From positions 1 through 64,000 of the forward strand of contig VGRF01000012.1 in assembly GCA_016875395.1 (NCBI GenBank): a stretch of 64,000 nucleotides of DNA, given 5' to 3'. Positions 38,321 to 59,731 of this stretch are shown one piece after another; position 1 is the stretch's first letter; each line of letters opens with the position of its first letter. The notes under the pieces are model-generated. The model had not been told where the DNA came from and searched no databases. It saw only the letters and a list, made by a program, of their open reading frames with translations. Position numbers and translations under genes: made by a program. The stretch comes from Deltaproteobacteria bacterium. Its GTDB lineage: Bacteria; Myxococcota_A; UBA9160; UBA6930.

Positions 38321-39637
38321 GTGACGCGCGTGGGCGCTTCGCAAATCGACTGGGCTCAGCACCTCCCGCCGCCGCGGCAGCGCGCCGGCCGCATCGCTTT
38401 GGCGCAGGAAGCGCTGCGAGCGATTGCGGATCGCTCGCGCGTGTTCATCTCGGCCGCGTGCTCGACGCCGTTTCGCTTGCTCGAACAGCTCGACGCGCTG
38501 CGTGATCACTTCACTTCGCTCGAGCTCGTCGTGGGCCACCTGCGCCGCCCCCTCGCGCCCTTCGCGCACGCGGGCGCGCCGTTTCGCATCACGTCGTTGC
38601 ACGCGAGCGACGCGCTCCGCGCGATCTCGGATCCGCGCGCGCTCGACATCCTGCCGTGCCGCTACTCCGACTACGGGCGCCTCTTCAGCGCGGGCGGCGC
38701 ATACCCGTGCGACGCCGCGCTCGTGCAGGTGAGCACGCCCGGGCCGGGCGGTCGCGTGAGCCTCGGCGTGAGCACGGGCAGCACGCTCCCGGTCGTGTTC
38801 GGGGCGCCGCTCGTGATCGCGCAGATGAATCCGCAGATGCCGTACACGTTCGGAGCGGGCGAGCTGCCGCGCAGCGCGTTCGACTTTCTCGTCGAGGCGG
38901 ACGAGCCGATTCTCGAAGTCGATCCGCTGCCGCTCGACGACGTGTCGCGCGCGATCGGCAAGCATGCCGCCGGCGAGATCCCCGACGGCGCGACGCTGCA
39001 GTTCGGCATCGGCGCGGTGCCCGACGCGATTCTGCAGGCGCTGCGCGATCACCGCGAGCTCGGCCTGCACGGCGGCATGATCGGCGACGCCTGCATCGAG
39101 CTCGTCGAGCGCGGCGCGCTCACGGGCGCGCGCAAGCCGTTCGCGCCGGGCTTCCTCGTCGCGGGCGAGGTGATCGGCTCGCGGCGCCTCTACGACTGGG
39201 TGCACCGCAATCCCCTCGTGCAGATGGCGCCGCCCGAGATCTCGCACGGCGCCGCGGCGCTCGCCGCGTGCCCGGACTTCGTCGCGATCAACTCCGCGGT
39301 GGAGGTCGCGCTCGACGGCGCCGCGAACGCGGAATCCGTGGGCGCGGAGCTTGTCTCGGGTCCCGGCGGTCAGCCTGACTTCGTGATCGCCGCGAGCCTC
39401 GCCGCATCGCATCGCAGCATCCTCGCATTCCCGTCGACCGCCGCGCGCGGGCGCGTCTCGCGCATCGTGCGCAGCCTCGCGGCCGAGGCGACGACGACGG
39501 TGCCGAGCTGGCTCGCGGACCGAGTCGTTACGGAGTACGGCGTCGCGCGCCTGCGCGGGCTGCCGCTGCGCGCGCGGGCGGAAGCGTTGGCGCGCATCGC
39601 CCACCCGAACTTTCGCGCGGCGCTGGAGAGTGACTAG
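38321..39637 (+). CDS. Acetyl-CoA hydrolase/4-hydroxybutyrate CoA-transferase family protein
   Basis: A 438-residue member of the class I CoA-transferase-like family. Typical stretches include QVSTPGPGGRVSLGVSTGST, IAQMNPQMPYTFGAGELPRS and LQFGIGAVPDAILQALRDH. The segment that normally carries the catalytic glutamate (LGIHxEMxxD) reads LGLHGGMIGDACIELVERG near residue 248, with Gly at that place. Activity may therefore be altered or absent. The start is GTG at 38321 or 38330. The TAG stop falls inside the left end (CTAG) of the 167-bp element, which supplies the stop codon. Confidence 0.82.
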   Translation: MTRVGASQIDWAQHLPPPRQRAGRIALAQEALRAIADRSRVFISAACSTPFRLLEQLDALRDHFTSLELVVGHLRRPLAPFAHAGAPFRITSLHASDALRAISDPRALDILPCRYSDYGRLFSAGGAYPCDAALVQVSTPGPGGRVSLGVSTGSTLPVVFGAPLVIAQMNPQMPYTFGAGELPRSAFDFLVEADEPILEVDPLPLDDVSRAIGKHAAGEIPDGATLQFGIGAVPDAILQALRDHRELGLHGGMIGDACIELVERGALTGARKPFAPGFLVAGEVIGSRRLYDWVHRNPLVQMAPPEISHGAAALAACPDFVAINSAVEVALDGAANAESVGAELVSGPGGQPDFVIAASLAASHRSILAFPSTAARGRVSRIVRSLAAEATTTVPSWLADRVVTEYGVARLRGLPLRARAEALARIAHPNFRAALESD

Positions 39638-39800
39638 AACCCATCTCAAAACTCCTCCCGTCGCCGGGCGCGCGTCTTTGTCCGTCTGGCTTCGTTGCGC
39701 TTCGCTCGAAGTATCGACGGATACGCCTTCGCTCGCGCGCCTCGCCAGCCGGCCAAATCCGCGCGCCGGGCTCGGTCCGGAATTCTGAGATGGGTTCTAG
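39634..39800. mobile_element. 167-bp MITE-like element, copy 1
   Basis: The ends are a perfect 15-bp inverted repeat, CTAGAACCCATCTCA at 39634-39648 and its complement at 39786-39800. The 137-bp centre is GC-rich with no gene. A second copy of exactly the same length lies inverted at 54336-54502. Compared by eye the two differ at about 15 positions. The palindromic CTAG ends give TAG on both strands: the left one stops the CoA-transferase gene and the right one stops the GST remnant. This fits a non-autonomous mobile element that lacks its own transposase. Confidence 0.82.
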
Positions 39801-54335: not shown

Positions 54336-54502
54336 CTCGAACCCATCTCAGAGTTTCGGACCGAGCCCGGCGCGCGGATTTTGCCAGCTGGCGAGGCGCG
54401 CGAGCGAAGGTGCATCCGTCGATTTTTCGAGCGAAGCGCAACGAAGCCAAACGGACAAGGACGCGCGCCCGGCTATGGGAGGAATTTTGAGATGGGTTCT
54501 AG
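54336..54502. mobile_element. 167-bp MITE-like element, copy 2 (inverted)
   Basis: The second copy of the element at 39634-39800, same 167-bp length, opposite orientation. The right end is the full TGAGATGGGTTCTAG (54488-54502). The left end has one change (CTCGAACCCATCTCA, 54336-54350). It lies 74 bases from the start of the wHTH gene and 58 bases from the ruvC start, so it occupies the promoter region of both. About 91 percent of positions agree with copy 1 when one is reversed, counted by eye. Confidence 0.82.
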
Positions 54503-59508: not shown

Positions 59509-59731
59509 CCGGATCGCCCCTGAGATCGTGACGATCTCGTTACGGTCGTGACCGAGTCATCACCAAAATGGGTGACGGGCCGGGGGTGTTTCAGTGACGA
59601 GAATCACGCTATCTGCTCGCAATGCCGCCGGATCACGACGCAGCGAGCGAAGCCGCATCGGCCGGCACGGCGATTGCTGTGCGCTCCGAAGTCGCCCGGG
59701 GGAAAGCCGCCCGGCGCCGGCGGAGGGGTGA

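Follow-up and report, generated by a model that had tools for sequence, protein, structure and literature searches.

The locus at positions 39634-39800 of the analysed 64,000-nucleotide stretch of DNA (the window) raises the question of whether a short repeated element can provide the stop codons of the two convergent genes between which it lies. In the preliminary description, it was depicted as a 167-bp element with perfect 15-bp terminal inverted repeats and CTAG ends, each of which stops one of the flanking genes. The unit and its repeats were confirmed, with CTAGAACCCATCTCA at 39634-39648 and TGAGATGGGTTCTAG at 39786-39800, and the unit can be read as a 161-bp element plus TA/CTAG flanks. 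Folding of this first copy minus its last 20 bases gave a z of -2.86. Its parts are as follows.

39634-39800, plus strand: copy 1 including both CTAG flanks
39637-39797, plus strand: the element itself, 161 bp (GAACCC...GGGTTC), on the assumption, drawn from flank tallies and complete IS elements, that TA was duplicated
39637-39648, plus strand: left terminal inverted repeat of copy 1, GAACCCATCTCA
39786-39797, minus strand: right terminal inverted repeat of copy 1
39635-39636, unstranded: left target TA within CTAG, belonging to the native TAG with which the CoA-transferase gene ends
39798-39799, unstranded: right target TA within CTAG, included in the stop codon of the frame on the minus strand
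39673-39763, plus strand: hairpin core module of copy 1 (93.9 bits, copy 1 itself being among the training sequences of the model)

Both stops are located where they had been reported. The 543-aa open reading frame of the CoA-transferase ends at 39637 with the TAG at 39635-39637, and its AcetylCoA_hyd_C domain match runs to the last residues. On the opposite strand, an 88-aa frame is ended by the CTA at 39797-39799, but its designation as a GST remnant did not hold, as no Pfam family matched it at an E-value of 0.001. The element, however, is not the source of these stops. When the element and one TA were removed, the rebuilt empty site (GTGACTAGGCACC, with the junction GTGA-CTAG-GCACC) already contained a TAG ending both convergent frames, because CTAG is palindromic and reads TAG in either direction. 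Moreover, related CoA-transferases end at a similar position with stops of their own and without the element. We therefore conclude that copy 1 does not supply stop codons, and that the CTAG is a pre-existing target which already stopped both genes.

The capping of genes with stops had also been regarded as unusual. In an 864-kb sample of the host genome, CTAG was observed 200 times where 2349 occurrences were expected from composition, an approximately 12-fold depletion, and 67 of these 200 sites serve as the stop of a gene on one or both strands. After masking of coding regions, the sites divided into 80 within coding interiors, 69 at stops, of which 9 are double, and 51 at other positions. 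Stops were adjoined by 7 of the 11 distinct host-genome elements with two recognisable ends and by 69 of the 120 CTAGs outside coding interiors (p = 0.76; gene stops assigned by a codon-position GC rule, not by a gene caller), and the element thus adjoins stops no more often than such CTAGs do. In a sample from other phyla, 18 of 36 elements adjoined a stop versus 71 of 611 CTAGs (p = 7e-8); this does not show a stop preference as such, since the background also comprises CTAGs in coding interiors, from which selection removes insertions. The capping is thus ordinary: the element is often found at existing stops because its CTAG target is a stop in both directions and seldom occurs at other places in the genome. 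A palindromic CTAG, rare in gene interiors and common at stops, allows a mobile element to insert without damaging genes.

A second, inverted copy of equal length, described as about 90% alike, was confirmed within the window, together with one further trace of the core.

54336-54502, minus strand: copy 2, inverted, 92% identical to copy 1, between the start of a minus-strand gene and ruvC
54373-54463, minus strand: core module of copy 2 (65.1 bits)
59618-59708, minus strand: weak core-like match without end repeats (27.2 bits)

Copy 2 is positioned upstream of ruvC and one of its flanks has decayed, reading CTCG for CTAG. A gene stop was found at neither of its ends, so that the capping reported for the element holds at copy 1 but not at copy 2. 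The host genome, a draft of 4.51 Mb in 96 contigs that is 96% complete, contains seven near-full-length copies, 92-100% identical, plus many fragments, and the 12-bp end pattern had 29 matches (at most one mismatch) versus none for the reversed control. Longer variants of 209-231 bp, with an extra block in the interior, were seen in the host genome (L008, L009) and in G022 (L246, L247).

Occupation of the same sites in relatives by an element with only two copies in the genome had been named as an argument against mobility. Besides the additional copies, the corresponding loci of relatives turned out to be vacant: ruvC was present with no element nearby in 13 same-family genomes, and these comparisons, like those with the ends of related CoA-transferases, concern homologous loci with differing neighbour genes rather than exact pre-insertion junctions. 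In many same-family genomes no match to the element was obtained at any position, and the search turned up no genome of the same genus. Miniature inverted-repeat transposable elements (MITEs) are under about 600 bp, free of transposase, bounded by terminal inverted repeats and multicopy. The present element is short, encodes no transposase, has terminal inverted repeats and occurs in multiple copies. Together with autonomous IS5-family elements with matching ends found elsewhere, these findings bear out the earlier proposal of a mobile, non-autonomous element. It is real, mobile and of an ordinary kind, and its apparent effect on stop codons is explained by target choice.

In two loci, L250 from a Myxococcota genome and L265 from an Arenicellales genome, a truncated DUF4096-type transposase begins 50-70 bp inward of such an end. 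The end of L250 is identical to the 12-mer GAACCCATCTCA, and its fragment was recognised by the motif MDLTDEQW..., not by a profile match. With the L265 fragment as query, four complete IS elements were retrieved from other genomes of its class.

L274, 892-1728: complete IS element of 837 bp
L276, 892-1726: complete IS element of 835 bp
L278, 102-941: complete IS element of 840 bp
L279, 1404-2279: complete IS element of 876 bp

The ends of all four are variants of GAACCCATCTCA, the right end of L278 being identical to the 12-mer, and TA borders each element on both sides, the one exception being the right border of L278 (TTAA). The encoded proteins gave matches to DUF4096, DDE_Tnp_1 and NCBIfam NF033580, and in two of the elements, L278 and L279, the reading frame is split in two. 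A TAG is likewise found at the left end of L276, where it is the stop of a 263-aa frame. Full-length transposons with matching ends, for which the preliminary description had suggested looking, thus exist in other bacteria, but none was detected in the host draft genome. There, no match to DUF4096 was obtained; among 40 other genomes with the end repeats, 39 lacked a match above the family cut-off and one had such a match. No complete IS was found among the Myxococcota genomes searched. As only one of the 40 end-carrying genomes had a DUF4096 match, partner and MITE almost never co-occur, and the MITEs seem mostly to outlive their partner or to arrive without it. The MITE interior is unlike an internally deleted IS and consists of a separate hairpin core instead. 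Two further loci (L266, L267) had weak, frame-broken DUF4096 matches and were discarded as evidence, and these ends were lacking in the plasmid-borne IS5 elements related to the L250 and L265 fragments. An autonomous partner in the same genome is usual for a MITE but not required, and its absence from the host genome lowers the certainty about the partner, not about the type of element. Altogether, the element is very probably a non-autonomous MITE with IS5-family ends that is moved in trans by an IS5-family transposase. We infer that this IS lineage moved the host-genome copies and has since been lost from the host genome, or was left unassembled in it.

The flanks also bear on the target. 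The bases to the right of GGGTTC were TAG in 25 cases, TAA in 10, TAT in 3, TAC in 2 and other in 9, in a search that forced CTAG on the left; with only the 12-bp end fixed, the bases to the left were CTA in 63 cases, TTA in 9 and other in 6. Since the base outside TA varies beyond what decay alone would suggest, we favour a duplication of TA within a preferred CTAG/YTAR over the alternative, a 4-bp YTAR target duplication, while the decay of old copies confuses these tallies. L274, flanked by TTA at its left end and by TAA at its right end, fits a TA duplication. Very probably, an IS5-family transposase (DUF4096 plus DDE_Tnp_1, of the NF033580 type) that recognises GAACCCATCTCA-type ends moved the MITE in trans, with insertion at YTAR, chiefly CTAG, and probably duplication of the central TA. 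For copy 1, the target would have been a single CTAG serving as the TAG stop common to two convergent genes, and insertion would have duplicated it so that each gene kept a stop of its own.

The TA-type flanks and the preference for CTAG would equally suit a MITE of the IS630/Tc1-mariner type, moved by an IS630 transposase. However, no DDE_3 match was present in the host genome, G022, G349 or G097, four of the five genomes searched and all of them with many copies; the DDE_3 loci of G004 lack these ends, and the transposases encoded by the complete elements with such ends are of the IS5 family. We consider this origin very unlikely. Still less probable is a REPIN-like origin, with mobilisation by a RAYT (Y1) transposase. 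While the element is palindromic and multicopy and Y1_Tnp matches occurred in 22 of 26 carrier genomes, they were absent from G349, which has 39 exact end matches, and from G035, G356 and G387. Moreover, 30 Y1_Tnp loci yielded only one weak, partial core match (17.5 bits), and the ends act as IS5-type terminal repeats.

A different idea is that the host keeps the element as a putative bidirectional terminator or stop cassette between convergent genes. In favour of this idea, 34 of 60 examined elements adjoin a gene stop on one side or both, a long hairpin is formed by the consensus, and 29 of 54 predicted pairs show changes on both sides that preserve pairing. Paired changes are, however, expected in any palindromic element family, the host genome shows no excess over CTAGs outside coding interiors, and copy 2 does not lie between convergent genes. 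Retention for such a role is very improbable. No match to a described RNA family was found in Rfam.

Several systems described earlier come close to this element. One is MITEPsy1 of Pseudomonas syringae, which may descend from ISPsy2; it is likewise short and non-autonomous, has terminal inverted repeats and inserts at CTAG or YTAA; unlike the present element, it is 100 nt long, with 18-nt repeats of another sequence (GGAAGG...) and a 4-nt duplication (PMC3189936). E. coli IS5, with CTAG/CTAA sites (PMC11677980), and ISMysh01, an IS5-family element with CTAG direct repeats (PMC9241763), share both their IS family and their type of target with the complete elements described above, but they are autonomous, have a reported 4-bp duplication and, as far as known, other terminal sequences. 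The Chunjie MITE of Geobacter uraniireducens, compared by description only, is comparable in length (178-235 bp) and has numerous copies that are intergenic or partial (PMC10969869).

The less ordinary part, and the one worth following, is the breadth of the core across phyla. Pairs of the exact 15-bp end, spaced no more than 300 bp apart, were seen in genomes whose titles name Myxococcales, Polyangia, Desulfobacterales, Campylobacterales, Hydrogenimonas, Verrucomicrobiales and several Patescibacteria; most of these genomes are metagenome bins, for which misbinning is possible in single cases. About half of the 15-mer matches in genome contigs had no partner end and are probably due to chance, and a scan of viral contigs for the exact end gave 29 loci but no paired element. 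The same ends, often with a homologous hairpin core of about 90 bp, were thus found in Myxococcota, Desulfobacterota, Campylobacterota, Verrucomicrobiota and Patescibacteria. A model restricted to the interior of approximately 90 bp was trained on 18 sequences from the host genome and its relatives. In 635 kb of end-carrying loci, its best matches were mostly element interiors, including the following (all E-values are rough).

L233, Harrisonbacteria: core match, 2.6e-11
L221, Liptonbacteria: core match, 2.3e-9
L228, Campylobacterales: core match, 3.2e-9
L176, Verrucomicrobiales: core match, 2e-7
L215, Desulfobacterales: core match, 1.7e-6

Four elements of 271-282 bp (L221, L228, L173, L232) had two core matches each in opposite orientation, the second in L221 being weak (0.04). 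In G004, G035 and G003, the core was also detected between ends of another type, CTAGCAGGYTGCGGAARAAC, and in the host genome it occurs without recognisable ends. Tentatively, the core may be an independent module, present in at least five phyla inside different CTAG-targeting ends (GAACCCATCTCA and CAGGYTGCGGAARAAC), with a structure selected in transposition or in the host, although we regard this as a possibility rather than the likelier outcome. Should the core prove common to these phyla, it would represent a non-coding mobile module of unusually wide distribution that deserves a name and further tests.

Elements with CTAGCAGGYTGCGGAARAAC ends form a second family (L069-L079, in G004, G035, G003 and G032), approximately 165-170 bp long and CTAG-flanked with a similar core, and several of its copies lie at contig ends or after gene stops. 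In L010, around 1490-1640, the core is flanked by another possible inverted repeat, CTCACGAA / TTCGTGAG. Cores without end repeats were seen at 1483-1667 of L011 and 1474-1658 of L012, flanked by direct repeats of 24 bp and 34 bp, respectively; the duplicated stretch of L012 reads as GGMPGMM-stop, an end typical of GroEL.
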